Both the position numbers and the translations under genes were made by a program. Shown here piece after piece: positions 969-60,310 of a DNA stretch of 64,000 nt (its first letter is position 1; each line of letters opens with the position of its first letter). The stretch covers positions 143,826,858 through 143,890,857 of the forward strand of contig NC_067282.1 of NCBI RefSeq assembly GCF_020740795.1, given 5' to 3'. Under the pieces are notes generated by a model that saw only the letters and a program-made list of their open reading frames with translations, searched no databases and was not told the DNA's origin. Origin of the DNA: Apus apus (lineage: Eukaryota > Chordata > Aves > Apodiformes > Apodidae).

Positions 969-1155
969 TTCAATAAAACCGGGATTGTAGTATGTGAATC
1001 AGACAAACTACAGAAAATAGTAGCTATGAGTTTCTCCAAATCTGGGTTGCATGCTGTGCAACAAATAATTCTGTATCTTCCCTCTTCTCTGCGTGGTTGC
1101 ACTGTGTATTTGTCCCGGAAACCATGCACAACTTCTACCACATTCCTCATTCAAG
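969..1155 (+). CDS. CDADC1-like: CDADC1-like unit 1, exon for degenerate N-terminal deaminase half
   Basis: Exon of 187 nt, entering in phase 0 after ctcttcag and leaving in phase 1 at CAAG|gtatgt. It encodes NKTGIVVCES, then SGLHAVQQ and SRKPCTTS. It matches the CDADC1 N-half (TGLVV..., DLHAGQ..., SRKPCSAC). The residue after LHA is Val instead of the catalytic Glu, as CDADC1 also lacks Glu here. The second cysteine of PCxxC is replaced by Ser, so this half should neither bind zinc normally nor catalyse. Its partner exon in unit 2 (11176-11362) has exactly the same length and phases. The reading frame stays open upstream to an ATG at 909, but the strong acceptor makes that intronic. Confidence 0.85.
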
Positions 1156-1593
1156 GTATGTAATACATTTTTAATCAGTCTGTGTTAACTGCAGTTGTAC
1201 GTGGATAACTTCATAAATGACCCCACTAAGCATCACGTCTAGAAAAATAATGTACATGACTCAGCTCAAGAAATTGCTCCTTAGTCGAGTAATCCTTTAT
1301 GCTTCAGGTAGTCTCTTAGAACTGCTTGCTTGGGAAAGGATTGGCAAACTGCAGGAGGTCATTTATGAAAGTGAAGTAGCAGTTGTTGCAATATTTATAT
1401 ATTCAATTCAGATTCCACTGCAATGGGAATGGTTTAAGCTCTGTGGATGAATATATGGGCTTTGGACTCTGGTGTCCCCACAGAATTGCAATTCAAGAGG
1501 AAACTGGCCCACTGTTTTAAACAAAAAACATGTGAATTGAATGTCCTGCCTGACTGTATGACACTTTAAGTGACTTTCAGCATTTGTTTCTAG

Positions 1594-2001
1594 GCTCAGT
1601 TTCTTCAGTCTATTACTGGCCAGAAGATCCTGAAAAAAAGGGAGATGATTCAGTAGTTAAAGAAGATATTCAACAAGCTGACCATATGTTTCTTAGAAGT
1701 CATATAAGCAGTGGTGTGCTCTTACCTGTTACAAGCTTTGAAACTGTGAAAACGATTGCAAGAAAAATCAGTCGCAGAAAATCCCCACTGAACAGCAATT
1801 TTAAGTTGTCTGGTGATCAAACTGAAGACCTGTCACTGGTTAGCATACAGAGCTGCAAAGATACATGTGCCCAGCACATGCAAAATGCTTTGCGTTGCTA
1901 TTATTATTTACTGGAATGTTCCCAACTTAAGATGAATGCACCTGAAGAAATTGTTCATCGACATGCACTGCAGCTTTGTTATTTTTTAGGAGCAAGATCT
2001 A
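1594..2001 (+). CDS. CDADC1-like: CDADC1-like unit 1, linker exon
   Basis: Exon of 408 nt between gtttctag and A|gtaagt, phase 1 to phase 1. It starts with SVSSVYYWPEDPE, the counterpart of ISYWPADPE in CDADC1, where the first domain ends. The long middle part is poorly conserved, polar and charged. It ends with HALQLCYFLGARS, matching the unit 2 ending HALQLCDLLASRS. In CDADC1 the same region joins the two deaminase halves (MVQARLLAYRT). No motif of another domain is visible. Confidence 0.85.
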
Positions 2002-2421
2002 GTAAGTTACGATGGGAGTATATAAACAATAGAAATAACACATAAAGACTAGAATCTGCTAGAGCGAAGAGTAATTATTTCACAACATATGTGGGGATCA
2101 GAGAAATTGGCACGCTTTGCTCACCTAAAGTGTTTTTCATTAATGCATTGACTACACTAATGTTGAATATTATTGTTTATAACGTTTGGTGCAACACTGA
2201 ACATAAACCTAAAGCAGAAGATGGAAACTCATATTACAGAAATATAGAAAATAATATTTTACCACTTTGGGGGGAGGGAACAATATTTTTATTTTATATA
2301 TTATTCTTTTTGTATATATACACACATATATATTTAATATATATCCACACAAACATATGTTTTTAAGTATGAAAAAAGTATGTTTTTTAAATGATGTGAA
2401 AATCTTTGTCTCTTCTAAAAG

Positions 2422-2474
2422 GTGATCCATATGAAGGTGTGGGGTGTACACTATACAGTGAGAATGGATATTTT
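2422..2474 (+). CDS. CDADC1-like: CDADC1-like unit 1, first strand of the C-terminal deaminase domain
   Basis: A small 53-nt exon, too short for an ORF search, between tctaaaag and TTT|gtgagt (phase 1 to phase 0). It encodes DPYEGVGCTLYSENGYF. This matches the CDADC1 segment TGVGAVIWAEG and the unit 2 exon NINGVGTVIYKEDNI. It supplies the first beta strand that packs near the deaminase active site. Support comes from motif, splice sites and phase together. Confidence 0.85.
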
Positions 2475-3167
2475 GTGAGTAGATTGAATTCTCCAACACT
2501 TATAAAATTTCTATTCACTGCTCCAAGGAGTGTGGTTTATTTGACCTAATGTAGACCTCTGCAGCATAGATGCCTACTTCTGGCCCTGGCTCCTCCTTAT
2601 AGTTGATAAAGGTATAGACTGTCATTCATCCCAATCCAGAGTCTGGAATAGGCCAGGTGGACCTGGTTTTCTCCTTTGAATATAAAGGGAGTCTATGGTG
2701 ACTAGTTCAGGTGTAGACATGTAACGAAGTTAAGGGATGTGAATTTACTTCACGAACATATTTTTCCATAAATATGCTAATTGTAATGATAATATTTATA
2801 ATATAACTTACAAAAATAATCCCTGACACTAGAAAGGAGTTTCTTGCAAAGGTAGAGAGACAAAAAAGATTGTGGTGAAATTAATGGGAAAAAAAATTAC
2901 CTTACTGGATGCAAAGGCAAAAATACCTCTTGATTGTATTAAAAGCCATAGCCTGATGGGGTGGTAAGATGCTCATGGCAAACTTAAAGCTGATTAAAAG
3001 TCTGGTATAAATAGCTGTAAAACCTTAGAAGTTGTATGTGTCTAGAAATATGTAGACTGCTTATATTTATGTTCTGAAGCTGTATTAGTATATGGTAAAA
3101 TGTCACTGAAGTTTGCAAGAGTCTGTTAGATTTTGATAATTTTATTTCATTTGGGTTTTTTTGGCAG

Positions 3168-3304
3168 TTTGGGGCAGGTTATAATGGATACCCTATTGGC
3201 ACATTATATGCAAACTTGCCCATTGCTGGAAGAAGTTGCCGAAGGAATGGACCTTCAAAAGGGGAAGTTGTTCTCCATGCTGAAGCAAATGCTCTCCTCT
3301 TCAG
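3168..3304 (+). CDS. CDADC1-like: CDADC1-like unit 1, catalytic-helix exon (HAEAN)
   Basis: Exon of 137 nt after ttttttggcag, phase 0 to phase 2 (TTCAG|gttatt). It encodes FGAGYNGYPIGTLYANLP and later VVLHAEANALLFR. The H-A-E motif supplies one zinc ligand (His) and the proton-shuttling Glu of the cytidine/deoxycytidylate deaminase superfamily. GYNGYPIG matches GYNAFPVG of CDADC1 and dCMP-deaminase-type enzymes. The site looks intact together with the PCxxC in the next exon. The donor gttatt is weak but fixes the correct frame. Confidence 0.88.
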
Positions 3305-3987
3305 GTTATTGTTGCAAATGTAGTAACAGAGTGACTTTACAGGCATTCCTTATGACAATAGATATGAATAGTGTGTAGTGTGAATAAGTGAGTGACTAGC
3401 CATGGATTTTCTCTTTAAACTTTCCATCTGTTCTTCACCTGTTAGTCCAGTTTCAAAGACTTAACATTTTACAGCTCTGAGCTTACAATCAACATGTTAA
3501 TGTGAGTGTTTCCTCTCCTCCACCTCTGCAAAGTTGTAATAACACCTTGTATTCCTAAACTGTCAAAATAATCACCCAATCTCATTTTGATGAAGCTCTG
3601 AACAGGTTTTGTAAGACACGGTCTGCAGCATTCTACTTGACAATCTTTTTTGGTGGTCCTTAGGCTAGCAAGGGTAGTGTCAAGCTAGCCAGATCTGTTA
3701 GGTTTTTAGATGTCCATAGGTGGAGAATCATTAGTCTGTGAAAGCATATGGCTCAGAATGGTGGCACTTTTGCATACATAAAAGTAGAGGAAGCAAAAAT
3801 GATCTGATATTTGAAGGGAAAATTGAAATGAAGTAAGAAACTTGGAGGAGGAGATAGCGAATAATCTAATTAGAAGTAATAGTCTTAAATTAAAATGCTA
3901 GATTTATTTTAAATAAATGTAGACATTGTGTTTTGTGTTAGCTTTGCAGAAAATTAATCAATTGTGCAAATACATTTATTTTTTCAG
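3305..3987. other. Unit 1 intron between the HAE and PCxxC exons
   Basis: An ordinary AT-rich intron that splits the active site between two exons, as in unit 2. No repeat or RNA gene is recognised. Confidence 0.6.
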
Positions 3988-4120
3988 ATCGAAGACCAAA
4001 ATAGAAGAGACTGATGTTCTTTACTGCACCAAGCCTCCCTGTCCTGACTGTTGGAAACTTTTGAGCGAGTTGAAAATCAAGAAAATTCACTGTGTGAAAG
4101 ACTTGTCCAAAAATAGTGAA
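3988..4120 (+). CDS. CDADC1-like: CDADC1-like unit 1, zinc-binding PCxxC exon
   Basis: Exon of 133 nt after attttttcag, phase 2 to phase 0 (AGTGAA|gtatgc). It encodes SKTKIEETDVLYCTKPPCPDC followed by ELKIKKIHCVKD. The two cysteines of C-P-D-C are the remaining zinc ligands. CDADC1 has TKCPCDEC at this place and IKQIYAGDVD after it. With HAE from the previous exon, unit 1 keeps a complete catalytic set. Confidence 0.88.
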
Positions 4121-4974
4121 GTATGCTTATGTAATATCATTTCTTTATTGTCATGATGTTATTATATGTTTGGGGGCAGGCGGTTCAGTTTATTTATCAT
4201 TGACTTACAGACAAATTCATCAGACCTTACCCTTCTGTATAGGAGCCTATGAGGTGTTTCATTCTTCTCACCCATGTACAACTGGAATTTCATGGCTTTC
4301 TGTCTTGGAAATCTTTACACTCAGATGCTTCTGCAGTCAGGAAAGGAAAAAGTTATGTATTTTAAGATTTCACGTGAGGGAAGTCCAACCTAGTGTTGAG
4401 CTATATCTATATGGCAGAGCTACAGAGTGCTGTCTGATTTTGCATCTGAATGCTTAGTCTGTCTGTACCTGAACTTTTATGATGGTGAGACCTGGATATG
4501 TGTCTTGGTTGCTTGGAGGAAACCTGGGCGTAGATGCTGAGGGGAGCTGTGTTCATTAAGGCCTGCAATATGAAGGAGCGTCTCTGTCCTGCATTGCACA
4601 CACTTCTAATCCCTCAGGATAAAAGCAGTAGCCTTCCTTCTGAGTCTCATATTTCCATATTTGAAGTGTCTGATGACCTTGGCTTTGCTTTTTGCAGGTC
4701 TGTGCCAAACAAGGTATTTTTGGCTCAATCACAAGATATAGCCCTCTGTTTAGTAGAAAGAAAAAGTATTTTCTGAGTTTGCAAAGTATTGTTCCTTTCA
4801 GGAAAGTTCCTTAAGTACTTAACAGGATGTACACAGATGTAATTTAAATACAATTATTTTTGTATGACTTTAGAAAAGTCCTTCTGAAGGAAAAGGTCTC
4901 AGTCTTGGTTCAGGCCAAAGTATCCTGTGAATGTCCATGTTCTAGATTAAATTCTTTCTCTATAAAGACAAATG

Positions 4975-5761
4975 TGAGCAAGGTATTCAAAGTCTTCTTT
5001 GCCTTGGTTTTTACTGCCAATATTTGCCCTCAGGAATCCCATCTCCCTGCGACCAGCAGGAAGATGTGGAGCAATAAAGGTTTAACCTCAGTAGAGTAGA
5101 ATCTGGTTAGGGAATATTTAAAGAAGGTGTATGTATACAAGACCATGGGATCTGTCAAGAAAGTGACTGGGAGTAGTTAGCATGGATTTTGCCTGACTAA
5201 CCTGACATCCTTTTATGATGAGTTGACCAGCATGGTGGATGAGTAGAAAGCAGTGGATGTTTTTCATCTTGACACTAACGAGACTTGCAACACTATCTCT
5301 AACAGCATCCTCATAGCCAAGCTAATGATGTGTGGACTAGATAAGTGGACAGTGAGGTGGATTGACAACCACCTGAGCTGCCAGACTCAGAGGGTTGTGA
5401 TCAGCAGCATGAAGTCCAGCTTGAGTCTGGTCCCTAGCAGGATACCCCTGGGGTGAATGGTAGGACCAAAACTGTTTAATATTGTCATTAGTGAACTGGA
5501 TAATGAGTAAGAGTGCCCACTTAGGAACTGTATAGATCATACAAAACTGAAAGGACTGGTTGGTACACCAGTTGGTTGATTTAGAGGGACCTTGACTGGT
5601 TGGAGAAATGGCAAAATAGGAATCTAATGAAGTTCAGCAAAGGGAAGTGCAAAGCCCATGCACCTGGGGAGGAATAACCCTATGCCCAGTACAGCCTGGG
5701 GCTGAATAACTGGAAAGCAGCTTTGCAGAAAAAGACTTGTAGGCCCCGGTGGGTAAGTTTA
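4975..5761 (+). mobile_element. CR1 LINE, reverse-transcriptase region (left part of a split copy)
   Basis: The DNA follows the CR1 ORF2 order: 'ttctttgccttggtttttact', 'accatgggatctg', then an RT stretch readable as DVFHLDTNETCNTISNSILI and GLDKWTVRWIDNHL. It ends at 'tttgcagaaaaagacttg'. There is a deletion after 'gggatctg' and several stops and frameshifts, so it is dead. The 3' part of the same element resumes near 6466. Confidence 0.8.
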
Positions 5762-6465
5762 CTAGGATACTTATTATCAAATACCATACTAAGCCCAAAA
5801 TATCAATCATAATCTTTAGAGGATCTTACAGTCTTAATAATGAAGATTACTTAATGTTAAGTTTGCTAATAAAGACAGTGAATGAGTAATATTTCTCACC
5901 CTTGTCAGGCCACAGCTGGGTGTCCTTGGTCGGATTGCAATTCCTGAGTATCAGTCTCTCTGACAGACACCCCTAGCTAGAGGAGAGAAGGTCCAGAAAC
6001 TTCCCAAGGAAAGTGTTCTGAGATCTCTCTGATCAAAAATGGGACCAAGCTTTTATAGAATAAAGTGGATTGACTGCTGTCATTTGACCATTAGCCATAA
6101 CTCTGACATCTTTCATTAGAGAATAAAAGGGAAACAGTAGAAAAAACCATGCAGGCCCTGTTCTCACCAAGCAAACTCTGTTGTTTATCTGTCCATTATT
6201 ACTTTTTCTCTGTTTCAGGCCTGGTTGTGGCTGGGCTGAGCTCTGTGCTCTTCAACACTGGAGAGCAGCTGGTGTTATGCACATCCACTTTGACCTCTGG
6301 TTATACCTTTCAAGGTTATTACCAGCTCAGAGTTTGCTAGGCTGTTTACTTTCTCATGGGAACCTTTCACTGCAGGCCAGGGCCTGCAAAAGGAGAGACA
6401 AAAAGCAGTTGAATCATAAAAGGGAACTGAGGCAGGCATATTGAGAGATGGAGTACCCTGCTACA
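5762..6465. other. Unclassified ~700-bp DNA interrupting a CR1
   Basis: This stretch separates two CR1 pieces that would be nearly adjacent in an intact element. It is not CR1-like. It contains TATAGAATAAAG near 6055 and AGAATAAAAG near 6120. I could not identify clear terminal TG...CA ends or a target-site duplication. It may be a nested insertion such as a solo LTR, but this is unproven. Confidence 0.4.
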
Positions 6466-7005
6466 GATGTGTCCTTGAGGCAAAGGTCAACTGCCTCCTG
6501 GGCTACTCAGCACTGGTGAGGCTGTGGTTGGATCATTGTGTCCAGTTCTGACCTCCCTGGTACAAGAGATGGACATATGAGACCAGTCCTGCTAACGGCC
6601 CTGAAGATGACTGAGCAATGTGAGCATTTCTTATATGAGGAGAGGCTGAGATACTTGGGACTGATCAGCCTAAAGAAGAGAAAGCTCAGGTGGGATCTTA
6701 TCTCTGTGTATAAATGCCTGATGGGAGGGAGTAAAGTAGACAGTCTTTTCACAGGAGTGCCTGGTGAGAGGACAAGAAGTAATAGGCACAATTTGAAATG
6801 CAGGAAATTATACTAAGACATAACAAAAAACCTTTTTTGCTGTGAGAGTGATGAGCATTGGAACGTCTACAGGATGTAGAGCCGTCATCCTTGGAGATAC
6901 TAAAAATCTGAGTGAACACAGCCCTAAGACCTCTGCTTTAGTTCACCCCGCCTTGACTAGAAACCTCCAGAGGTGGCTCCCAACCTCATGGATTCTGTGA
7001 GTGCC
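6466..7005 (+). mobile_element. CR1 LINE, 3' part (right part of the split copy)
   Basis: Contains the CR1 3' ORF2 words: 'gcactggtgaggctg', 'gtgtccagttctg', a translation with RLRYLGLISLKKRKLRWDL and YKCLMGG, then 'tggagatact' and a final 'atggattctgtg'. It is diverged, with stops. It ends about 35 bp before the acceptor of the 48-nt exon at 7046. Confidence 0.8.
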
Positions 7006-7045
7006 TGGTTTACTTTTTGCTAATAATTTTTGTTTTTTCTTTTAG

Positions 7046-7093
7046 GATAGAATATATTCAGACAATGAAGAGGATCCCATTTTCTATAAAGAG
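7046..7093 (+). CDS. CDADC1-like: CDADC1-like unit 1, 48-nt exon without a visible unit 2 partner
   Basis: Short exon between cttttag and GAG|gtaggt, phase 0 to 0, encoding DRIYSDNEEDPIFYKE. In position it corresponds to the CDADC1 stretch after the zinc site (ISYMRFGELEG). The splice sites are good and the frame fits both neighbours. I could not find an equivalent between 16723 and 18716 in unit 2. Because it is a multiple of three, it could be skipped without breaking the frame. Confidence 0.7.
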
Positions 7094-9328
7094 GTAGGTT
7101 TGTGTATTGAAGATTAGACTTAGAGTTGTATTACTAAAAAGTATTTTTGAACATTCTTTTAATAAGAGCATAGAATACTTTGCTTTGATATATGTCATCC
7201 TTCTTGTTTGCCTCACTTATTGTTGGGTTTTTTTCTGTTGTTTTTAAGAAGCATGTTTTCATTAGATGGAAAGTTCATTAAAATACATTGAATGCTCATG
7301 AGCCGTTTGATGATATGTAAATACGTATTAGCCTGAATGTACACTTCAGAACTTTTCACTCATTATTTTGAATTCCATCAATAGTTTCAGGAGGCAGTCA
7401 TTCCTGGATGTCACAAAAAAATATTCAGCAGGTAGAAGGCATGTCAGAAGTGGAAGCAGATGGTGTAGAATAGTATTACTTTACTTCTCTGTGAAGTCTC
7501 TGAAGCAGTCTAAGTTGGAAAAAAAGCATACTGAGACATACAGGACTACTGATGAACTGGATAAATACTTAGGGGAGAGTAGGCTATGTAATTTATTTTT
7601 ATCTTTCTCTGTAAAGCCAGAGTTTTAGAACTGAAATAGGCAAGAATGACTCTGAGGACCCACATGGTCCAAGGTTCTATTTGAGCAAACAATGTGTGGA
7701 AAGTACCACATAAATGTTCACTTATGCTTTCAATAAATTTATTTAGTTTTTGTTTGGTTGCTTTTTTTTTCCAGTGGGATCAGTCCAAGACTCAATTTAT
7801 AGGAGGTATGGTTAAGATTAATTTTTTTTTTCTTTGATACTGTTCCATTTGATTTCTTTCGGTACTACTTGGTGTTTAAACTAAAAAGCACAGTATATTA
7901 CTAAATATTTTTCTTTTAAACCCTTTTGCAGCACATAATAAATACGCCAAACTCTGGTTATAAATTGCATCTAATTACTGTAATTTTATTTGAGTTACCC
8001 TTGAAGTAGTTCTGCTCATTCCAACTTTACTTTGTGACTATACGTAACTGTCTGAACTCATCTGCAGATTTCACTTCTGCCACAATTCTGAATATGTACA
8101 AGACAGAAATGTTGCCTTTTAGTTCTGTAAATGGCCACACCCTGCAACCAGTTACAATTGAAAAGACAGAGGAATAACATTGCATGTTTATGGAGTTAAT
8201 AGTTTCTGCTCTTTCTCTGAATAATTAATTTTTCAATTTGTCCAGATGACTAATCACCACCCTTCATGAAAGTTTTCTAATTTTAAGGCTTTTTTTGTTA
8301 ATTTCTTCTAGCCTTAAATGGTTATATCCAAATCCTTGGAGGTACTGGGCTTGAATCTTCTCCCCATGTCACTGGCTTTATGATAATCTGTGTTATGCCA
8401 GTCAGGGAGTCAGAATACACAGAATAATGTCATTAATACAAAAAATTTTTTTTTCAACACTTTGAGAATACAAAAAATCTTGTATACTTCTTGCTTAGAA
8501 CATTAAACTTAGAACATTAACATTTTGAAGTCTTAATGATTTGTAACCTGAAGCATCATTGACCATACTGGGGGAGAACAAAGATTTGAAATAAAATTAA
8601 GAATTGGAACAAAACTAAAATTGGAAACTCAAAAAAGTTCCTGACAACATCTTCATGGAGTGTGAAGATACAATAGAGAACTGAGTTGGGGAAAATTGTG
8701 TAACTGAAGAGGAGTAAGGGATAGTTTATTTTAAAATTTAGGAGAATGGTATGTATTTGCAGTAGAATGAAATCAAATTGATGGGAACAGTGAGAACCAA
8801 GATGATGACGTTCAAATAAGGAGGATGACAGGATGGTGAAAATGAACAAACAGGGACTCAGTATTGAAGATAAGAAGAGGCAGTCCTGAGTGTGAAGGCA
8901 AAAGGAGTAAGGAGACAGTGTGGGTATTGACTGTTCTGTATGTGAGAAAAGAATTATAGATTTGTGAAATTAAATGTGGAATTTAAAGTTAAAGTAACCC
9001 CAACAACAAGAAAAAACCCAACCCCCTTGTCACCACCACCACCACTGGGGAAGCATATTTATTTCTACACGAGATTCAGTTAACTTTTTTATAACTGGAC
9101 AATTCCCTTTCACTTTAATATAGTTTCTTTTTGAATTAAAGTATTACACTTCAATGTTCTGACTGTCAGTCATTGTCCTAAACCAGCTGTGGCTTCTGAG
9201 ATGCTGAGCTCACCGTGGATACTCTGTCAGTGTTGATAATAAGAAAATGAGTGCTGTTACACAGCTGCACTTCAAATACTCTCTTCTGTGAAATTCCTAA
9301 TCAGAAATTTTTCTTTTCTGTCTTCCAG
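7094..9328. other. Unit 1 introns around the 31-nt microexon
   Basis: Two introns (7094-7774 and 7806-9328). They are AT-rich, with short T and A runs and a CACCACCACC patch near 9032. No mobile element or RNA gene is recognised. Confidence 0.55.
7775..7805 (+). CDS. CDADC1-like: CDADC1-like unit 1, 31-nt microexon
   Basis: Microexon between gcttttttttttccag and GGAG|gtatgg, phase 0 to 1, encoding WDQSKTQFIG. It starts with Trp, like the tail after the deaminase core in CDADC1 (KFTWQLNPS). Unit 2 has a microexon of exactly the same length and phase at 18717-18747, which is the main support. Confidence 0.72.
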
Positions 9329-9394
9329 TAGCCAGTGATTCAGAAGACAATCAGGGAACAGAAGAAATTAATGATGAAGACAAAGTGAAATATG
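9329..9394 (+). CDS. CDADC1-like: CDADC1-like unit 1, acidic tail / unit-joining exon
   Basis: Exon of 66 nt after tgtcttccag, phase 1 to phase 1, encoding ASDSEDNQGTEEINDEDK and then VKY. It corresponds to the last coding exon of unit 2 (18923-18990), which is also acidic at its start. Leaving at ATG|gtcaac puts the next exon in the right frame, but gtcaac is not a strong donor. If the donor is not used, the frame reads on to a TAA at 9460-9462 and unit 1 would end as a separate gene. Confidence 0.6.
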
Positions 9395-9805
9395 GTCAAC
9401 TTGTCACTAGTCATCATAGTTTTTGTTTCCCTAATTTCATTTCCTTAAACAGAATTGAGTAAATGTGATTGTCCTGAAAGCAGTAAGGTGGATATTAGGC
9501 AGTACAGAGAGATGATACCCAAACTTCTGACACATCTCTCTGGCAGCATATTTGTCTTCATTTTAGTTTTATTTTAAGTAAAAGTAATTGTATACGTGGG
9601 TTTTTTTTTTTTTTCAGTCTTAACCAATGTTGTTGAAATCTTAACAGAAAATATAAAATAAAAGGGAAGGTTTTACACAATGATAGTTGAAGTATATACA
9701 TTTTGAAGAAGAGTATGACATAGGGGAATAGATTGGCCATTAGGGCTTCTCTTCTCAGAAGTGTGGCAGGATCAATAGTCCAACCGAAGCGCATCCACAC
9801 TGATG

Positions 9806-9966
9806 CATGCAATGGGCAACAAACAGGAGGAGCTGGAAGCCTCTGTGCAGCAGGAAAACTGATTTAGTTGTCATCACTAAAACATGGTGGGATGACTTAC
9901 ACAGATGGAGTGCTCAAATAGATAGCTACAAACTCTTCAGAAAGGATAGGCAAGGAAGGAGAGGAT
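9806..9966 (+). mobile_element. CR1 LINE fragment, endonuclease region
   Basis: 'ggcaacaaacaggaggagctggaag' and 'actaaaacatggtgggatga' followed by 'agctacaaactcttcagaaaggataggcaaggaagg' are typical of the CR1 ORF2 endonuclease. The reading includes ITKTWWDD and SYKLFRKDRQGRR, where T-WWD is the conserved core. It sits in the intron that joins unit 1 to unit 2, just before the unit 2 leader exon. Confidence 0.8.
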
Positions 9967-10014
9967 ATTTCTCCAAGATTGATTTTATCTTTTCTTTCCA
10001 TTGTTGCTTTCTAG

Positions 10015-10103
10015 GTTCTCCTATTCCTCATCTGATGAAAGAAGATGTGTGCATGTTCTTAGCACTACATATGGAAAATTTCCCAAGTGAACAAGAGAAA
10101 CCT
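10015..10103 (+). CDS. CDADC1-like: CDADC1-like unit 2, leader exon
   Basis: Exon of 89 nt between ttgctttctag and CCT|gtgagt, phase 1 to 0. It encodes IPHLMKEDVCMFLALHMENFP, cut short here to its key words IPHL, CMFLALHMENFP and SEQEKP. This resembles CDADC1 exon 2 (IPRLSKVNLF, LWMELFPAE), which also begins in phase 1. An internal Met (LMKED) could start translation if unit 2 were its own gene. The matching leader exon for unit 1 is not in the window. Confidence 0.8.
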
Positions 10104-11175
10104 GTGAGTTAAGTCAATTCAAATATGTGTATTGTTATTAAGGCTAAAAAAGCTGTAGTACCCAATATGCTTTTGATTTAAAAATTACTGGCTGTGTGTT
10201 TGGGCAAACCAATCTCAATTTGGGGAATTTTTACTTAATTCTGTTTATTGCAAATAAATACAAACTTCCATTTGCTGAATTGGATATATATCAGAAATGG
10301 AACCATAAGGAGTTCAACAGCTTCCATCCATTTTTTCCACATTCATCTTAAGCCAGACACTTCTCCTTCCACCTTCCCAGTCTCAACTTCCCTTTTTTTC
10401 ACCATAGGTTACTCCCAGTCAAGTCTCAATTCCTTCAATGAGGTGAAGGGTGGTGCAGGAGAGTGGGACTATGTGTGTGATGGTTTGTCTTCAGCTCCTC
10501 TATGTTTTTTCCCAGTTTTCCTCTGCACAACTGTGATTCCTGCTGACCTTGTCCTGGCAGGAGTTATATGCTGGCTGTGGTCCCTCAGGAGTGTCCCTGC
10601 CCCCATGTGGGCTTCTTGTGGGCCACAGTCTTGCAGTTGAGATTTTAATCTATTGTATGCTTAAACACTAATGATTTTTGATAAATTTATGCTGTTGTGT
10701 TTTTGAAGCTACATAGATGATGTTTGTTCCTGCTGTGAGTATCCTTTGAGTAGTGTTGGCATTTGTTTGAAACTGCACCCTGTCACTCCTTTCTCCTGTT
10801 TTGGTATTTGAATAGACCAGCTATTGGGATATTCATCTTCCTACTTGTTCCATGATTTTACAGAATTACAGACTTTTAAAACGTCTACCTCTTACCCCTT
10901 TCTGGACTCCAGTCAAAGTACTTGTGACATTGATCTAGAATGAAACAATTGAGTTGTGTGCTGTAGACACACCAGAAATGACTGAAAATCCCCAGGAATC
11001 AGCACATTTCTAGACTGCTTGATCCCTACCCTTTTGCAACAAATGCCATTCATTTTCAGTGGGAGCCTTTGCTTGCTATTACTTTACATATACATGATCT
11101 GGATGGACTCTCATTCACTGAATGGTTATAGATTCATTTGTGTATGTATGCATGCATTTGTATATGTATATGCAG
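10104..11175. other. Unit 2 intron after the leader exon
   Basis: Contains no recognised gene. The last ~55 bp are TG/TATG/CATG-rich (about 11118-11173) and lead directly into the acceptor of exon 11176. Confidence 0.55.
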
Positions 11176-11362
11176 GATTACAACACTGGAATTGTCATTT
11201 GTGAAGTGAGCAAGCCAAAAAGGATTATCGCCCTGGGCTGCTCCTCAAAGGACCTTCATGCTGTACCAAAAGTGCTGTTAAGGTTTCCTAACGCACTGAA
11301 AGGCTGTGAAGTTTACATGTCTCGGATGCCCTGCAATAAGTGTGCAACATTGCTGGTTCAGG
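11176..11362 (+). CDS. CDADC1-like: CDADC1-like unit 2, exon for N-terminal deaminase half
   Basis: Exon of 187 nt, phase 0 to phase 1 (TTCAGG|gtaggt), encoding DYNTGIVICEVSKPKRI, SSKDLHAVPK and SRMPCNKC. It matches the CDADC1 N-half (TGLVV, SSEDLHAGQ, SRKPCSAC). It keeps both PCxxC cysteines but, like CDADC1, lacks the catalytic Glu. It is therefore probably a structural, non-catalytic domain. The acceptor lies in TATG/CATG-type repeats instead of a normal pyrimidine tract. Confidence 0.87.
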
Positions 11363-14324
11363 GTAGGTATCAGAATGGAAATATCTCCTAGGCCAAGATT
11401 GCTCGTGACATCCTCACAGGCTGGAAAACTAGTCATGACAGGCATTTCTCTTCTTCTTAATTTTCTTCCATTCTGCTCACTGCATTTTCCCTCAGTTGGT
11501 TCTATATGAATCATTCAGTTCAGTATCAGAAGCTGATGTGGCTAAATATTTTACCAAATAGGCTGCTGTGATAATCAGAGAAATTTAAGATGTAATTCAT
11601 AATGTCATTGTAGAAATCATTGATATTTACATGAATCATGAAGAGTGCAAGTCATTAAATGAAAACGGAGCCACCTGAGTTTGTAGGGATGTTTGTTAAA
11701 TGAGAAAGAAAATTAAAGGAGTGGTCCCAAGGGATGTGAAATCCTGAAAAAGTGATGCATAGATATTTGACCTGATAAAATAAACAAAAAGCAAAGTAAT
11801 TCTGTTTAAGCTATTTATCGGATGAAAAGTATACCTCAGGTATTAGTATTCAGAATAACAAGGGAAGTAGGTAGATTTTTTTGCAGACAAGTTCATGTAT
11901 AATACTGCACAAATGATACTGTGCTACCTAAATATTGCATTTTTTATTTTTTAAGATGCCTAATTGATATGCATATTTTTCCTTTGCAATAATTTCAATA
12001 GCTTCTTGTTTCTTTTTAAAACAATCTTGTTGTTTTGGAAATTTTTACCATTTGGTAAATATAAGTAGAGAAAAAAGTTTAATCACCTGGAAAAAAGCAA
12101 AACCCTCATGATTTGTATATAAAGTTTCCCTTTTGACTGTGAAAATAATATGTTACTAAAAAATATTTATTTCTTATATTTATGATGCGAGGAAAATCTG
12201 CAGATGAATAAATATATACCATATCACTTTACATTTATTAATAGGGGGTGTGACCACTAGTGTATTTCATATTTGATATTAATCTTGCATATATCTTTTT
12301 TTCAGCACAAGTCTCACAAGTGTATTACTGGCCAGATTTGGACATCACAATGGATACAAATAACCCAAAGAATTATGATCCACTAGAACATGTTCATTCC
12401 ATCTTTATAAACAGCTCCATTGCTGCAGCGGTGTATGTACCAACAATAGACAAGCAAAGACAGGTGCAAATACTTGGTTTTAATAGCAAAGTGTCTCAAT
12501 TTTCATCTAATGGTGAAGAAGTTAAGTACAGGTATCTTAACTTGAAGCACCTGAAAGAAGGACGACTGAAGGAATACAAAAAAAATCTTGCTACAGCAAA
12601 GGAGTGTTTTCAAACTCTGACAAGTTGCAAAGATGAAAAAATAGTAATTTTAGAAGAGGAGGAATCTTGTGTAAATAATAATTCAAAATACACCCATGCC
12701 TTACAGCTCTGCGATTTATTAGCATCCAGAAGTGGTAAGTAAATTAATATTACTAGATTTAGCTCAGTAATTCATACAATGTAGAAAAATTCTGCATACT
12801 ATATAGTCATATTCCTTGAGGTGCAATATCCTGAGAAAATCTTTAATTGATTCCATTGCATTCTGTTAGCTAATTCATTAAACTCTTCATATTTGCCAAC
12901 TTTAGTATTGCAACTGTGTTATAACTGTGTTATAAAATGAATTCATGTTGTATCATTGTCTTACAAAACATATTCAGGATATCAGAGGCAGGCAATAGTA
13001 GTAACTGGGCAAAAAATCTCCTTAAGTAAAAAGAAAGTGTATTGTTACTACGAGCTGGAGATTTCTTTGCTGAAGGGACAGTTGCCCCAGCATGAGCCCC
13101 AGGGCTGGGTAAGACCCAAAGAAACACCGTGCAGAGATATTCAGCAGGGCTCTTTGTATACCACTAGGCAAACTGGTGGAAGAGGAGCAAAGTGCTTCTC
13201 CAGTCTTCCTGATCAGGTGGGAATTTCTAACTCCTTAGGCTGATGATAAGGGGCTCTGGTTGTTGCCAGTTTCTCCATGCTCTCAAATGGCAGGCGGTCA
13301 GTTGTGATACTGGTTTTTGTTGAGATTTCCTATTTTTTAATTAAGAAATTGCAAAACTGAAGGAGCATTGTGACGATAGGTAAAAAGAAAACAAATCCAA
13401 ACATCATGTTCTGTTCCTTTTCCTCCTTGTCTGCCTGGCTGTGGTTGGTTACACCGAAGATAGTAAGTTGTGTTTTTTTGTTCAGTTGTTCCTGTGCAGC
13501 TTGAGAGTAAGCTTCACTCAGCAGCACAGCAGGAGTTTTCCACCATATCCCAAGTTCCTACTCCTATTTCCCAATGCTTTCCCTACTGTTAGCTAAATGC
13601 AGTTGGCTGCTTTACAGAATAGAAGGCATTGCAGGTTTTGACTACTTTTAATCATTTTAACAGTTGCTCATTGCTAACAAAATGGAGTCTTATGGTTCCC
13701 AGCCTTATCTCAGGACTCTTCATCAGTATCATGCCCACACCAGCTCCCCTGGGTCACCAGAAAGTGGAAAGCTTCTAGTTTTCCTTTCCCCATCTCACAA
13801 AAGACAGTTTTGGGGAGTTGTTTCTTCTTGCCAGGGGGAAGACGGAGGGAGGGAGAGAGATCCTGGGCAGGAGATGTCATTGCATGTACCTGTGCCCTGA
13901 GGAAGGCCTAACAGAACTTGCTGTTCAAGCAGAGAAAGCAGTTTTAAAACTCTTCCTGAGCTGCAGCAAATCAAGCACACTAGTTGCAGCAGTAAGGGAG
14001 GTCCATGGTTTGGGTACTTCAACACATGAGCTCTGGATAAGGCAATTGAGGTGGACTACAGGAGACAGACAGCTATGAGGACTGGAGGCAAGTGCGTTGA
14101 TGAGCCTAACAGCTGGTTAGCCTTCTTGTCAGCAGTTTACCTGGTGCAATATTTTCTGGAGGCAGTCAAGCAAGGAACTGCAACTTTTGTCACAACAGGT
14201 GTGTCCTGCGTCTCTCTGGACGAGCATGCAAGAGTAAGAATGCCATACCTTGCAGCCAGCAGGTTTGTTTAACATCATAGTGTTGTATGAGTTTATAACT
14301 GATTTTATAACTGTTTATCCTCAG
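11363..14324. other. Unit 2 introns flanking the linker exon
   Basis: Introns 11363-12305 and 12735-14324, with donors gtaggt and gtaagt. Nothing beyond AT-rich intron sequence is recognised. The second one is less AT-rich at 13660-14270, where several short open frames occur without splice or motif support. Confidence 0.5.
12306..12734 (+). CDS. CDADC1-like: CDADC1-like unit 2, linker exon
   Basis: Exon of 429 nt between atctttttttcag and AGTG|gtaagt, phase 1 to 1. It begins AQVSQVYYWPDLD and ends THALQLCDLLASRS, the same borders as the 408-nt exon of unit 1. The middle is polar and rich in Lys and Glu (YKKNLATAKECFQ, VILEEEESC), with little similarity to unit 1. This shows strong divergence between conserved ends. 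Confidence 0.87.
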
Positions 14325-14371
14325 ACAACATCAATGGAGTGGGGACGGTGATTTACAAGGAAGACAACATT
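14325..14371 (+). CDS. CDADC1-like: CDADC1-like unit 2, first strand of C-terminal deaminase domain
   Basis: Small 47-nt exon between tttatcctcag and ATT|gtaagt, phase 1 to 0, encoding NINGVGTVIYKEDNI. It matches TGVGAVIWAEG of CDADC1 and the 53-nt exon of unit 1. The donor is a perfect GTAAGT. Confidence 0.86.
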
Positions 14372-14625
14372 GTAAGTAAATGTTTATGTGCTCTGGGAAA
14401 TTGTGCTGCTCTTTTAAAAAAGTCTAGTTGTGATCTATTGTCATATGAAAATAATGCTTGTAAGATTGGAAAACATGACAATATTTTTAAAAGTCCATTT
14501 CTGCCCTACGAAATGCTCTTTAGATTTACTAGGCTACTGTTTATGCATGTAAATGAGGAAGTTAACTTGCATCATATAGGCTCTCCTAAAAAATGTGTTA
14601 GTGGAGTTGCAGTAATGAAGACAAC

Positions 14626-14690
14626 TTTTTTTTTTCTTTTTTCTTTTTTCTTTTTTTTTTTCTTTTTTCTTTTTTCTTTTTTTTTTTTTT
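14626..14690 (+). repeat. Pure pyrimidine tract (T6C-type repeat)
   Basis: 65 consecutive T/C bases made of T runs separated by single C. It lies 255 bp after the 47-nt exon in the unit 2 intron. A long open frame over it (polyphenylalanine) is an artefact of the repeat. Confidence 0.95.
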
Positions 14691-15282
14691 GTGAAAAAAC
14701 CCACATGCTTGTATTCCCTAACTGTCCCAGAACATTAAGATTATGGATTATTTGATATCCAGTCAGCAGTTAGAAGAGGTGAAGTTCTGTATTTGCTATA
14801 CTTTAAAGTAATGAGCTGATGTCCCTGATGACATTGTTACTATTACCACATTTAAATCCCATGCTTATTTTTATTTTATGTATTTCTCCAAAAAGGACAT
14901 AACTAAGAAAATGTAGCTAACATTTTCCAAATCTTTTTGGTGACTTTGTGTTTAGCAGCTGCTTTTTTGTTTATTTTTTCTTCCTAATCAGCTTTTCCTG
15001 TGATGCATTTTATTTCATGTTCGTAGGAGAATGTATTTCTAGAAACAAAGACAAATTATCTTTTTTTGGAAAAAAATATTAATTTTCTGAAAGTTCACAT
15101 ATCATACAAATGTATGATGAGAATCCACAATTTTGAAATTTGCATAAACACTCCCAAAGAGCATCATATGAGGACTCTCACTGAAGTTATTAAAAGCTTT
15201 TAGGAGTTGGATTAGGCTGTAGATAACTGAAGGTCCCAGAACAACATTACTTTTTGTTTCTTTCTATGTTGTTTCTTTCTAG
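14691..15282. other. Unit 2 intron, remainder before the CAE exon
   Basis: AT-rich intron. The acceptor is preceded by a duplicated pyrimidine-rich word (tttctatgttgtttctttctag). No other feature is seen. Confidence 0.5.
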
Positions 15283-15404
15283 GTTGCTGTGGGCTACAGT
15301 GGCTATCCAAAAGGGGCAGTGAATAATTTATTTTGCAACAGGGACGATGTTGATTTTGACAAGCATGCAATTGTATGTGCAGAAGCTAATGCAATTATTA
15401 TGAG
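15283..15404 (+). CDS. CDADC1-like: CDADC1-like unit 2, catalytic-helix exon (CAEAN)
   Basis: Exon of 122 nt after gtttctttctag, phase 0 to phase 2 (ATGAG|gtagga). It encodes VAVGYSGYPKGAVNNLF and AIVCAEANAIIMR. The first zinc ligand is Cys instead of His (C-A-E). Classic cytidine deaminases use Cys at this position, so zinc binding can be kept. The catalytic Glu is present. The exon is five codons shorter than its unit 1 partner, in the variable loop before the helix. Confidence 0.88.
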
Positions 15405-15557
15405 GTAGGAACTCATTAATACCTTCATAGAATTAGGCAAAAGAAGGCTTGGTGTTGAGTCCTTCGTTAATGAATAAATAGCTCTTTGACTAATCTACCA
15501 TAGGAGCTTCAAAATTGTAAAACAGAGAAGTAACATTACATAGCATGGAAAGGAATC

Positions 15558-15860
15558 AATCATAGAATCATAGAATTGTGGTTCGAGTTGGAAGAGACCT
15601 TAAAGGTCATCTAGTTCCAACCCCCCTGCAAGGGCAGGGACACCTTCCACTAGACCAAGTTGCACAAAGCCCTGTACAACCTCGCCTTGAACACGTTCAG
15701 GGAGGGGACATCCACAGCCTCTTTGGGCAAGCTGCCTCACCACCCTAACAGTAAGTAATTTTTTCCTAACTTCTCACCTAAATCTACCTTCTTCCAGTTT
15801 AAAACCATTACCCTTTGTCCTATCACTACAGACCCTGGCAAAAAGTCCCTCCACAAGAAA
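15558..15860 (-). mobile_element. CR1 LINE 3' end, antisense to the gene
   Basis: Reads 'aatcatagaatcatagaat...gttggaagagaccttaaaggtcatctagttccaac' on the + strand, the reverse complement of the CR1 3' tail. It is followed by the reversed 3' ORF2 end ('gccttgaacacgttcag', 'aatctaccttcttccagttt'). The copy is about 300 bp and 5' truncated. It lies in the intron between the CAE and PCDDC exons. Confidence 0.92.
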
Positions 15861-16601
15861 TCAGTCTTATAAGGCACTGAGTGCAATTGTTTTTTAGAGA
15901 GATCAAGGTCCATGTGATCTTATATTCTAATACACCCAGCAAACTTATGTGACAGTCTCAGAGGTTCCTGCTAGTCCCCTGTCTCTGACCCCATGCAAGC
16001 CCAGTTCCTGTGGGCAGTCATGGGCAGGGGTCTTCACATGTGCTGAAGATGGGAGTAGCCAGTAGTAGAGCTGTTGCTTCTGTGTGGGCTCTGGTGTTAC
16101 CTAGCCACTGGATCACAGCTGGGTGCTCAATTCGGACTGCCTCCATTGACATGTGCAAACTGAGTTTCATGAAGATTCACACCTTTGGGAAATTTCTCTG
16201 CAGACTGGCAGTGCTGGTGCAAATGCTTGTGCACATGTCCCTGGCTGATGGTCCCTCTTCTGCTTAGTGGGCAGTGTGCTGACTGAATGCTCTGTCATCT
16301 GCTGTCACATTCAGATGTTTATGGTTTGGTGATGAAATGATTCCTGCATAGGCAGTTCACAAACCGGAGTATCTGTCTTTACAGTGCTGAGTACACAAAG
16401 AGTAGGTAGATCCATTTCCTCAGCTGGCAAGCTCATGGTACACACTGCAACTATTTGCTTGTCATGGGTTGTATAACCCTTACTCACCTCCCTTGGCCAA
16501 AGGTAGAATAGAAAAGAGAAGAACCCATTCTAGATTCCAAGGTAAATAATTCCTCCTGTAAAGACCGCATTTGTAATTGTGACAATATTGCATTTTTTCA
16601 G
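15861..16601. other. Unit 2 intron, part after the CR1
   Basis: Unique-looking intron sequence with moderate GC content. No further element is recognised. It ends in the gcattttttcag acceptor. Confidence 0.5.
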
Positions 16602-16722
16602 TTCTGAGACAGACCTGCATGATGCTGAACTCATCACTACCTCTAAGCCCTGTGATGACTGTCTGAAACTGATCCGAGCAAAGAAAATAGCAAAAGTCAT
16701 TTGGCCTGTGCGAGACAGAAAT
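16602..16722 (+). CDS. CDADC1-like: CDADC1-like unit 2, zinc-binding PCxxC exon
   Basis: Exon of 121 nt after gcattttttcag, phase 2 to 0 (AGAAAT|gtaagt). It encodes SETDLHDAELITTSKPCDDC and then KKIAKVIWPVRDRN. The PCDDC cysteines complete the metal site begun by CAE in the previous exon. It matches TKCPCDECVPLI and the following strand in CDADC1. Confidence 0.88.
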
Positions 16723-18716
16723 GTAAGTGATATTAGAGATGGTTAAAAGACGTGTCATGATTCAAAGTTTGCTGTTCCTCTGTCCCTTCCCTGAGGACAT
16801 CTTCCTAAAAATCTTGTGCTGGGGAGCAATTGCACACTCTTCACCCTTTTAGGCTGGGCCTTCTTCTAGATTGCCAGTTTCTACCTTGTTTGCACTGTTG
16901 GAGGTAGACTGGGTGCCAAGGAAAGGATACATCTCATGGGGGTGTAGATGGTAGAGATGGCTGCTCCCACTCTGACAGGGAACGCTACAGGGATGAAAAG
17001 TAATGCTTGCAAGCTGTCCTTTTTCTCCTTCAGCAAGTGGGGAAGGTCCTGCCTACCAAGGCACCTAGCCTTTAGATGGAGCTTCATTGGGCCCACTCTA
17101 CCATCCTGCTTACCAAGATAGGCTCTGCTCTACTGTCCACCTACATAGGGACATTTTGGCTGTAGCAGTTGCTCCCTCTTTATGAAGCCACATACTCTTT
17201 CTGAAGAGCTCATGCTTTGCTAAGGGAATGTGCATGGCTCCCTAGAAACCCAGGGTCTACACACTTGCCTGCCATGGCAACTGTTACCTTCCAGACAGTG
17301 GTAAGGACTTTATAAGCATTATTAAAATCCTTGTCATTCTGTCTTAGAAGTAATGAGTAGAGATGATAATACAACAGGGAGAACAATAGGAGAAAATACT
17401 GTACAGAATGACAAGAGTTTAGATTATTCACTATCCAAATAGTATGAACAAGAAGAGACTATCTAGCTGTTGCACATTAAACAAACAAACAAGCCATCGC
17501 CTTGTAAAGAGCCTGGTAATGTTCTCCTATGCACACTTTGTACACTCAGCTGAAGATGCTATTCTGTAGCACATTTAACTGTTAATAAAAGCAATGACTA
17601 TGGGAAGTTGTTACTTGCTGTAGGTTCAGGTAAATGCCAAGTTGGAGTGGACTATTAGATCTCCTTGTGCTGGTAGGGGTCACTGACTTCAGATAATCCT
17701 TGCTCTTTTTCTCTCTTTGTTCATACTGTCTCTTCCCAAGTTAACTTCAAAAATTCACTCCAGTTTGCAACAGTATTGAACACATAGGCAATGACAAGTG
17801 TTTCCTGACTCGTCACCAAATCTAAGCTAAGAATAACATTTATTTGGCATATATATATATATATATAATATAAACTTTTCTTGAGGCTGGCTAGATCAGA
17901 AAAGGATTGAATGTAAAATACCCAGCATGACAGGTGTGTCATTGCAACAGAAGAAACCTTTTCTGTGTATTCACCCAAGACTGATGCTACCACCAAACAG
18001 GCAGTGCAAGGCAGGCAGTGTCACAGCTTGCACATTATTAATTTAGCAGAGGTTGAATTAATAATTTTCTAAAGCTGCAAAATTCTTACCAGTAACACAG
18101 GGTAGAGTCATGGTGGTCTGTGAGCCAAAAAGCATGAGAGCTTCTCCACAAAGTGGCATTCAACATTAAAACATGGAGATGTATTGCATTCAAGAACTTT
18201 ATTTTCCGGTAAGAAAGTGATACTCTGTTTCAAGCAGTCAAACAGAGCTGCTGCAGGAAATCTAAGCTTGAATTTGTTTACATATCACTGGCAACAAACT
18301 GTGTCACAACTTTGATACTACATTAACACAGCTGTATTTGATAGAGTGCATTGGGACTACTACTGGTTTTGATTCTTGCAAAGAATTATCTCAGTGAATG
18401 TGTGCGCGCAGATCTCTGTAGAACTGAGACCATACAGTTCTATTGATATGAGATAGAATTAGCCAAGTTATTTTTCACTTTATCAAAATGTAGCTCAAGC
18501 TCACTAAAACAAATTGGGTTTAATTATCTTCACTTTTACAGGCCTTTTACACTGTTAATGTACATCCTAGATGATTTTGTTTCTTTTAAAAAAAGCCTGT
18601 CAGAGAATATAAAAATAGAAATATGAACAAAAAAATTATATGTTTTAAAAAGTCTTTCTTATGGTTTAATGGTGTTATAGGTTTGTCACTCACTGTGTGT
18701 TTTCTTCCCTTATTAG
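16723..18716. other. Unit 2 intron before the 31-nt microexon
   Basis: I searched this stretch for a counterpart of the unit 1 48-nt exon and found none that fits motif and phase. It contains an (AT)n run at about 17848-17870. Confidence 0.5.
17848..17870 (+). repeat. (AT)n microsatellite
   Basis: Uninterrupted alternating AT of about 20 bp within the unit 2 intron. Confidence 0.9.
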
Positions 18717-18747
18717 AAATCCAGAGGATCAACTGAAGATCCTGTAG
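18717..18747 (+). CDS. CDADC1-like: CDADC1-like unit 2, 31-nt microexon
   Basis: Microexon between cttccctt-attag and GTAG|gtaatg, phase 0 to 1, encoding KSRGSTEDPV. It has the same length and phases as 7775-7805 in unit 1, which is why I accept it despite low sequence similarity. Confidence 0.68.
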
Positions 18748-18922
18748 GTAATGACATCCAAATAAAATAATAGCAAATATGAAAAGGACAAACCATATTA
18801 ATTTTTTCTCTACAATTATGTTTGGCTCTGACAAATGACCATGTCAGAGGAAGAAACTAAACTAAGTGAGGTTATGACGTGCTAAATATTGAGACCAAAA
18901 AATGAGTATTTTGATTATGTAG

Positions 18923-18990
18923 GTGGTGAGGAAAGTTCTGCTGGAACAGGGACAGCTCACATCAAGTTGAAAGCAGAAAAGCTACAATGA
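18923..18990 (+). CDS. CDADC1-like: CDADC1-like unit 2, terminal coding exon with stop
   Basis: Coding part of the last exon: acceptor attatgtag, phase 1 entry, GEESSAGTGTAHIKLKAEKL-Q and TGA at 18988-18990. It is the partner of the 66-nt exon of unit 1. The acceptor has a poor pyrimidine tract. Six bases after the stop an inverted CR1 begins, so the 3' UTR would start inside a transposon. No AATAAA was seen close downstream. ATTAAA occurs at about 20399 and 20419, too uncertain to call. Confidence 0.65.
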
Positions 18991-22200: not shown

Positions 22201-22483
22201 TAAATATAACAGGCTAGTATGAAAGGCCTCTGTGGAGAACAGTGAGAGCCCACCAGTTCTCTGGACAGTAATTGATGTCACTGACAGTAATAGACACCTC
22301 TCCACCTGTTTTCCTCATCATTGAGAGAAGGTCAGTTTCTCTGGGTCCATGGATTCTTTGCCTTTCCTTATTCTCAAGTAGATGTGGACATAATCAAATT
22401 CAACTACTACATTATTGTGGCATCTAATTATCAAAATAAGGTAACATATCCTGCAAACCACAATAGTCTCTCTATCAGTAGTG
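19217..22483. other. Intergenic sequence downstream of the CDADC1-like gene
   Basis: No coding exon, RNA gene or clear mobile element is recognised. It may include the 3' UTR of the upstream gene. Open frames here are short and without family motifs. Confidence 0.5.
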
Positions 22484-23449
22484 TCCCCCAGGTGTCAATA
22501 CTCGGTCTGATGTTGTTCAACATATTCATCAATGACCTGGATGAGGGGACAGAGTGTATCCTCAGCAAGTTCGCTGATGATACCAAACTGGGAGGGGTGG
22601 CTGACACTCCAGGGGGCTGTGCTGCCATCCAGCATGACCTGGACAGGCTGGAGAGCTGGGCAGACTGGAACCTGATGAGATTCTACAAGGACAAGTGTAG
22701 GGTTATGAATGTGGTGAGGAAGAACCCCATGCATCAATAGAGGTTAAGGGTGGAGTTGCTGGAAAGCCGTTCTGAGGAGAAGGATCTGGGAGTCCTGGCA
22801 GATAGCAACTTATCCATGAGTCAGCAATGTGCTCTTGTCAAGAAGGCCAATGTAATTCTGGAGTGCATAAGGTACAGTGTGGCCAGTTGGTTGACAGAGG
22901 TCATTCCCCCCCTCTACTCTGCCCTGGTGAGGCCACATCTGGAATGCTGTGTCCAGTTCTGGGCTCCCCAGTTCAAGAGAGACAGGGAGCTACTGGAGAG
23001 AGTCTAGTGGAGGGCAACAAAGATGACTGGGGGACTGGAACACCTTCCTTACAAAGGAAGGCTGAGAGAGGTGGGACTCTTTAGCCTGGAGTTGAGAAGG
23101 CTGAAGGGAGACCTTATTAATACCTATAAGTATCTAAAGGGTGGGTGCAGGGAGGTTGGAGCCAGACTCTTTTCAGTAGTTCCCAGTGACAGGACAAGGG
23201 GCAATGGGCACAAGCTGGAACACAGGAAGCTCCCTTTCAATATGAGGAAAATCTTCTTAACTGTGAGGGTGACAGAGCAATGGAACAGGCTGCCCAGGGA
23301 GGTTGTGGAGTCTCCTTCTCTGGAGATATTCAAGGCCTGCCTGGATGCAGTCCTTAGTAATGTAGTCTGGGTGATCCAGCTTTAGCAGGAGAGTTGGACT
23401 AGGTGACCTCTAGAGGTCCCTTGCAGCTCTACCAATTCTGTGAGTCCGT
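22484..23449 (+). mobile_element. CR1 LINE, ~970 bp 3' part
   Basis: One of the better preserved CR1 pieces in the window. It includes FADDTKLGG (the RT active-site D-D region), [20 protein letters not shown] and [13 protein letters not shown], then ESPSLEIFK and the tail 'ctaggtgacctctagaggtcccttgcagctc'. It is 5' truncated inside the RT and carries stop codons and frame shifts. It is a retrotransposon remnant, not a host gene. Confidence 0.95.
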
Positions 23450-60241: not shown

Positions 60242-60310
60242 TCAATCTTTCAGTGAGTTATAGGCTTTTGTGGTCCGGGTATTGATGAAATCTGCCTTCT
60301 TAAAGTCAGC
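60242..60310 (-). CDS. PKP2: PKP2 terminal coding exon
   Basis: Reading - strand: acceptor cattccaaag, then ADFKKADFINTRTTKAYNS and LKD, then TGA (+ strand 60242-60244). It matches the human PKP2 end AQFKKTDFVNSRTAKAYHS. Phase 0 entry fits the preceding exon. Confidence 0.95.
   Translation of the reverse strand, partial: ADFKKADFINTRTTKAYNSLKD

Follow-up and report, generated by a model that had tools for sequence, protein, structure and literature searches.

Can a protein built like CDADC1, which carries one two-domain deaminase unit per chain, exist in a double-length form with two such units in one reading frame? The question is raised by a locus of the swift Apus apus within a 64,000-nucleotide stretch of contig NC_067282.1 (positions 143,826,858 to 143,890,857, forward strand; hereafter the window), where an initial annotation had described a CDADC1-type deaminase duplicated in tandem. 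We conclude with moderate confidence that the locus is one gene, that its product is a CDADC1-like protein doubled in tandem, whose four domains of deaminase fold comprise two dead ones and two of catalytic type, that the duplication preceded the living jawed vertebrates, and that the swift frame is open but fast-evolving.

Two CDADC1-like units in one open frame

Rebuilding the gene model gave 16 spliced exons on the plus strand (969-18990) with AG/GT borders, which join to 2157 nucleotides and 718 codons with a single terminal TGA, exactly as first read. Five core exon pairs of the two units (187/187, 408/429, 53/47, 137/122 and 133/121 nt) have equal start and end phases, the end phases being 1, 1, 0, 2 and 0. 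Swift unit 1 and unit 2 aligned with 31% identity over 305 columns at 140 bits, while 200 shuffles of unit 2 reached a maximum of 24.3 bits. The five-pair phase match and the unit alignment together establish an old internal duplication. Both swift units matched Pfam PF00383, and human CDADC1 was the top PDB match for swift unit 2 and for related double proteins, in agreement with the claim that the CDADC1 architecture occurs twice. Seven matched exon pairs had been proposed; the 31/31 and 66/68 pairs were rejected as duplication partners, as their lengths are alike but their peptides have no visible likeness (WDQSKTQFIG versus KSRGSTEDP; VASDSEDN... versus GGEESSAG...), and the 66-nt exon of relatives is placed directly before unit 2.

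Double proteins from sharks to birds

Relatives comprised 78 proteins from three protein searches, which were word-limited and clustered at 90%. Units were counted with a one-unit profile, each match exceeding 150 bits and 140 positions. Two units were found in 24 of the 78 proteins, from 21 species including the swift itself: the birds Apus, Calonectris, Spheniscus, Tyto, Rissa, Struthio and Caloenas; the turtles Pelodiscus, Caretta (four models), Pangshura and Macrochelys; Alligator; the gecko Eublepharis; and eight elasmobranchs (Mobula, Amblyraja, Heterodontus, Hemitrygon, Pristiophorus, Cetorhinus, Scyliorhinus canicula and Hypanus). One unit is incomplete in the models of Apus, Calonectris, Caloenas, Eublepharis and Hypanus, and the remaining 54 proteins are one-unit, partial or distant (sponge). 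Inter-unit linkers could be aligned across birds, turtles and alligator. A third full unit was present in none of the 24 two-unit proteins, and the 64-kb window held no unit match beyond the known exons at E 1e-3; the suggestion of more units further left found no support in these data. The names attached to the 78 proteins included no mammal, no amphibian, no teleost, no snake, no relative of chicken or duck, no hummingbird and no oscine songbird, but this is a word-limited and 90%-clustered set in which such silence is not proof of loss.

No double protein is described in the listed papers on CDADC1 (NYD-SP15) as far as titles and the beginnings of abstracts tell, and the word 'paralog' occurs 0 times in the main texts of two 2025 papers. 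The double-length paralogue thus appears undescribed in the papers searched, as had been supposed, but NCBI already holds gene models for it, unnamed.

Three further observations concern the wider family. In the sturgeon model P0049 (Acipenser ruthenus) a domain 2 runs into the beginning of a further unit, and ray-finned fish may therefore have tandem CDADC1-like units as well. The sponge protein P0053 (Amphimedon queenslandica) has two deaminase-like, weakly unit-like stretches, which bears on the claim that CDADC1 is vertebrate-specific; as an invertebrate CDADC1 it was a weak candidate (47.0 and 45.6 bits) and was omitted from the trees. The Pfam family MafB19-deam scored above cut-off in all six relatives scanned (P0054, P0057, P0066, P0071, P0069 and P0060), with 69-95 bits against a cut-off of 27, below PF00383.

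A duplication older than living jawed vertebrates

The tree of 66 units contained a branch with support of 100/99 (starred), recovered in 100% of 200 bootstrap trees, one side of which was formed by unit 2 of sharks, turtles, crocodilians, a lizard and birds. Because shark and sauropsid unit 2 share this side, the duplication predates the split of cartilaginous and bony vertebrates, that is, living jawed vertebrates; its great age had been correctly anticipated. Unit 1 was coherent except for the long human row, which joined unit 1 with weak support. A domain-2 tree of 29 rows placed the units together with human CDADC1 against two DCTDs (99/97, starred), in accordance with the proposed CDADC1 kinship. 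Canonical CDADC1 may be sister to unit 1 or to both units: the position of human CDADC1 relative to the two units received 55/63 in the 66-unit tree, and a unit 1 grouping was not rejected in the domain-2 tree (approximately unbiased test, p-AU 0.415).

Two dead domains and two dissimilar catalytic-type sites

Each unit consists of two deaminase domains with a linker of more than 100 residues between them. The swift N-terminal domains, both dead by their motifs, are encoded at 969-1155 (unit 1, HAV...PCxxS) and 11176-11362 (unit 2, HAV...PCxxC); the former exon, bounded by splice sites, is 85.9% identical to the penguin and kittiwake exon, and the latter was placed by splice sites and alignment. 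Among 92 N-terminal matches in the 78 proteins the motif was HAV in 84, HAA in 5 and HAI in 3, and HAE in none. CxxC was kept in 91 of the 92, the exception being the swift's own PCTTS, in which the second zinc cysteine of unit 1 is lost. The inter-domain linker exons (1594-2001, 408 nt; 12306-12734, 429 nt) and the exons for the first strand of the C-terminal domains (2422-2474, 53 nt; 14325-14371, 47 nt) rest on splice sites and comparison with relatives.

The C-terminal domains carry the catalytic-type sites. In swift unit 1 the HAE motif and a lysine equivalent to human K392 lie at 3168-3304, and PCxxC with a K423-equivalent lysine at 3988-4120, both from splice sites and alignment; in unit 2 a CAE motif lies at 15283-15404 (alignment, spliced frame) and PCxxC at 16602-16722 (splice sites, alignment). 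The catalytic residues of both swift domains are intact. Sites were counted by chain order in 20 two-unit models, with covered positions as denominators. First units kept His, Glu, the N367 asparagine and the K392 lysine in 20/20, and both cysteines and the K423 lysine in 19/19. Second units had Cys and Glu in 18/18 and both cysteines in 17/17, and no covered second unit of these models had a lysine at the K392 or K423 place. Across 51 matches to C[AS]EAN, the K392 lysine was found 0 times and the K423 lysine once (P0031); two turtles have the CSE variant of the unit 2 motif. At the N367 place, over all aligned rows, Asn is present in 30 of 30 rows of unit 1; of the unit 2 rows 19 have Asn, and the 15 with Ser come from birds and Rhineura. 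Judged by these residues, each chain is shown to have two predicted catalytic-type sites of different composition, both with the catalytic Glu, plus two dead domains. The expectation of two potentially active sites is borne out as regards the glutamate, while the second site differs in having Cys for His.

In human CDADC1, according to two reports, the N-terminal domain is dead (HAG) and binds zinc through H109, C134, C137 and E157; the C-terminal domain is active, with H398, E400, PCxxC and N367; K337, K392, K423, K450 and K452 contact the triphosphate; and the enzyme, which forms trimers and hexamers, prefers deoxycytidine triphosphate (dCTP) (PMC12088426; PMC12184417). The swift units thus have the per-unit layout of this (d)CTP deaminase (PDB 9HFQ-9HFT), namely a dead N-terminal domain, a long linker and a catalytic-type C-terminal domain, and unit 1 shares the HAE, PCxxC, N367, K392 and K423 equivalents; CDADC1 has one unit per protein (514 residues in human) versus two units and four domains here, and HAE where unit 2 has CAE without the K392 and K423 lysines. 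Among first units K337 is a lysine in only 1 of 20, and K450 and K452 fall at unsure alignment places and look unmatched. In view of these points (d)CTP is a candidate substrate of unit 1, not a proven one. We infer from the sequences that each chain combines a nucleotide deaminase site of CDADC1 type with a second site that has been re-specialised.

The units were also compared with three other kinds of deaminase. DCTD, the deoxycytidine monophosphate deaminase, shares the fold and zinc motifs and also has a lysine at the K392 place, but it is a single domain that falls outside the group made by CDADC1 and the units (99/97), and human DCTD is without a lysine at the K423 place. The zinc motif of cytidine deaminase (CDA) is Cys-Ala-Glu, as in unit 2; unit 2 is nevertheless CDADC1-like, and no CDA was among the PDB matches listed. 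The AID/APOBEC proteins belong to the same superfamily, but Pfam APOBEC_N was marginal (two of six relatives, at 25.8 and 25.2 against a cut-off of 25, and no single stretch passed by itself) and Pfam AID reached 20.5 against 27.3, whereas PF00383 scored 110-142 in the same relatives.

One gene or two

The NCBI Apus apus model P0001 (501 residues) is identical to the translation of the window exons from residue 30 to 501 and links unit 1 to unit 2 through 7046-7093, 7775-7805 and 8312-8341. Another annotation, that of NCBI, therefore also places both units in one chain, with differing details. The 48-nt exon at 7046-7093 encodes the C-terminal tail of unit 1, in the place of LDDLKKNFDYHE in other birds, and the 31-nt exon at 7775-7805 compares with WKQCKTQLTA in Calonectris. 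The alternative linker exon at 8312-8341 (30 nt), which P0001 uses instead of 9329-9394, keeps the frame and has a weak donor (-1.0 bits). Residues 1-29 of P0001, from left of the window, look by eye like a CR1 stretch, versus the MEDESHP...CHAPSDQ start of other birds, so the true first exon may have been lost or missed in the swift; the first exon or exons of unit 1 are left of the window or lost.

Before unit 2 lies a 66-nt cassette exon (9329-9394; VPSDSKDNGGTEG in relatives), and P0003, P0004 and P0009 likewise have a 66-nt exon directly before unit 2. None of the model's 15 donors scores lower than that of this exon, at 9394 (-2.7 bits by a simple position weight matrix). Other birds splice or read on after ...NDEG, 15 bases upstream (after 9379), where the swift has GATGAAG|AC; in the condor model P0043 the chain finishes with NDEGKVK, against NDE-DKVKY in the swift. 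The swift exon thus seems from its sequence to have lost the ancestral donor. Such a loss need not be harmful, since skipping of the cassette leaves the frame intact, and the kittiwake model P0056 skips it likewise. Unit 2 then begins at 10015-10103 with IPHLMKEDVCMFLALHMENFP (splice sites; compare human IPRLSKVNLFTLLSLWMELFP), and after its catalytic exons the spliced frame closes with a 31-nt tail exon (18717-18747; compare QSRGLTEDP in relatives) and the last coding exon with the TGA stop (18923-18990). The loon model P0012 uses ALDKAIEVDYRRQ...MRTG as an exon, which corresponds to intron of swift unit 2 (14030-14090) and is likely a false or alternative exon.

Several observations weigh against a single joined gene. 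Neighbouring genes can be fused by prediction programs, and the joined frame might be such a fusion, with two neighbouring CDADC1-like genes, or one locus with two single-unit products, beneath it. We regard this as rather unlikely. P0001 skips the unit 1 catalytic exons (donor at 1838) and stops shortly after the 15404 donor. In Theristicus, Amazona, Rhynochetos, Carettochelys and Rhineura the two units have a model each, on equal-sized contigs; models that stop after unit 1 in Theristicus, Amazona, Rhynochetos and Pterocles have the ending VGLHIED/VGLHLED in common, and reading past the 7093 donor in the swift gives VGLCIED and a stop at the same place. The unit 2-only models P0003, P0004 and P0009 have a common MSEVEAD start, and the swift has the weak 9394 donor with a stop at 9462. 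In favour of one gene, the MSEVEAD exon survives in the swift as a remnant (about 7432-7485) that reads MSEVEADGVE and is then interrupted by an in-frame TAG, and the other unit 1-only models (P0033, P0034, P0039, P0040, P0042 and P0044) have unlike, intron-like tails. Joined models, with the linker frame kept, turn up repeatedly, in 21 species that range from sharks to birds, and the Caretta locus LOC125626659 has double and unit 2-only isoforms under one locus number (P0060, P0074). The finding of 24 two-unit models lowered the standing of two genes; the ending common to four birds' unit 1 models partly restored it and reduced our confidence in the joined gene. Separate products or genes are possible because some birds have one-unit models with shared ends, and we clearly prefer one gene with additional single-unit products.

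P0005 is a 353-residue frame that runs through unit 2 to its end across seven unit 2 exon junctions within a 2225-base contig; the same stretch takes up about 9 kb in the swift genome. Among named proteins, ibis P0004 (88% over 353) and eagle P0006 (89% over 330) come closest. This suggests a spliced transcript in another bird, or a retrocopy, and bears on unit 2 alone, not on the junction of the units.

Constraint and decay in the swift copy

The swift protein departs from other sauropsids at 5 of 96 and 5 of 98 invariant columns in the two units, and at 62 of 209 and 79 of 207 variable columns. Swift changes thus avoid invariant columns, a pattern that in the alignment looks like past constraint. 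Decay in swifts, of unit 1 or of the entire gene, is nevertheless possible. That the swift locus is a pseudogene in decay, or a gene in the course of dropping unit 1, while it works elsewhere, is an explanation we take seriously, though we would give it somewhat less than an even chance. The ten changes at 194 invariant columns compare with 0-4 per unit in other birds, except ostrich unit 1 with 8 of 115. Swift branches in the 66-unit tree measured 0.19 (unit 1) and 0.31 (unit 2); in the domain-2 tree the unit 1 catalytic domain reached 0.34, versus 0.053 in penguin and 0.078 in kittiwake, and the unit 2 domain 0.073. To this come the zinc Cys-to-Ser change in the unit 1 N-terminal domain and the odd NCBI model with its start resembling a long interspersed nuclear element (LINE). 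The probability of decay rose further with the apparent loss of the ancestral donor and with the stop codon that interrupts the alternative start exon of unit 2. On the other side stand 718 codons without stop or frameshift, and catalytic residues that are intact in both C-terminal domains. The idea of a single double frame at the swift locus therefore holds in so far as the frame is open and P0001 joins the units, and is weakened by the 9394 donor, fast evolution, possible decay and the single-unit models of several species.

Genomic setting

The deaminase gene lies tail to tail with a gene of the plakophilin/p120-catenin family, the 3' exons of which are on the minus strand at 60242-63168. 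Joined together, three pieces of this neighbour matched catenin delta-1 (2.9e-8) and plakophilin 1 (2.1e-6), and a 25-residue piece alone gave no match; the gene is presumably PKP2. CR1-like LINE fragments, with translations judged by eye, lie at 9724-9980, about 22300-23400 and 31500-32900, one of them between the two deaminase units. Chicken CDADC1 is listed among CAB39L and KPNA3 on chromosome 1 at 170-171 Mb (PMC10976558). As the swift gene sits instead beside a plakophilin-type gene, it looks like a second locus, distinct from CDADC1; a canonical CDADC1 of the swift was not encountered.

Discussion

What might a double chain do? The N-terminal domain of each half, which by sequence is without the catalytic glutamate, would have a structural role, like its counterpart in human CDADC1, and the dead domains would build the ring of the oligomer. 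Since the C-terminal domain of unit 1 keeps HAE and PCxxC, together with two of the five lysines that contact the triphosphate, its substrate is most likely a phosphorylated cytosine nucleotide, with (d)CTP as the leading candidate. The C-terminal domain of unit 2 should be either a sensor or another deaminase site, specialised differently and with less phosphate contact, since Glu and PCxxC have been kept since sharks while the zinc Cys replaces His and the lysines are absent. It is improbable, in our estimate, that both sites are inactive and that the protein serves as a scaffold or regulator of canonical CDADC1 or DCTD. Clear phosphate lysines are absent from unit 2 and number only two in unit 1, as such a role might lead one to expect, but the catalytic Glu is present in 20 of 20 first and 18 of 18 covered second units, versus 0 of 92 N-terminal matches.

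The dimer of trimers of human CDADC1 tightens on substrate, and the tight hexamer is described as its active form (PMC12088426). Because two stacked trimers make up that form, we speculate that an assembly of three double chains might correspond to it, with the two rings paired covalently from the outset. We put forward only tentatively, as a possibility that we would not yet bet on, that the double proteins are a jawed-vertebrate enzyme family, undescribed in the papers searched, with two different cytosine-deaminase sites per chain. One would be the His/Lys site of CDADC1 type, and in the other the zinc ligand would have changed from His to Cys before the split of sharks and bony vertebrates; three chains would make a permanently paired double ring. 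On this view mammals and several groups of birds have lost the family, as often happens with defence or nucleotide-pool factors that are dispensable.

An equally old, double-length relative with an altered second catalytic site would be a natural comparison for CDADC1, and the comparison of unit 1 with unit 2 makes substrate specificity testable. Sharks, turtles, crocodilians and some birds are animals in which the activity may matter more than in mice.

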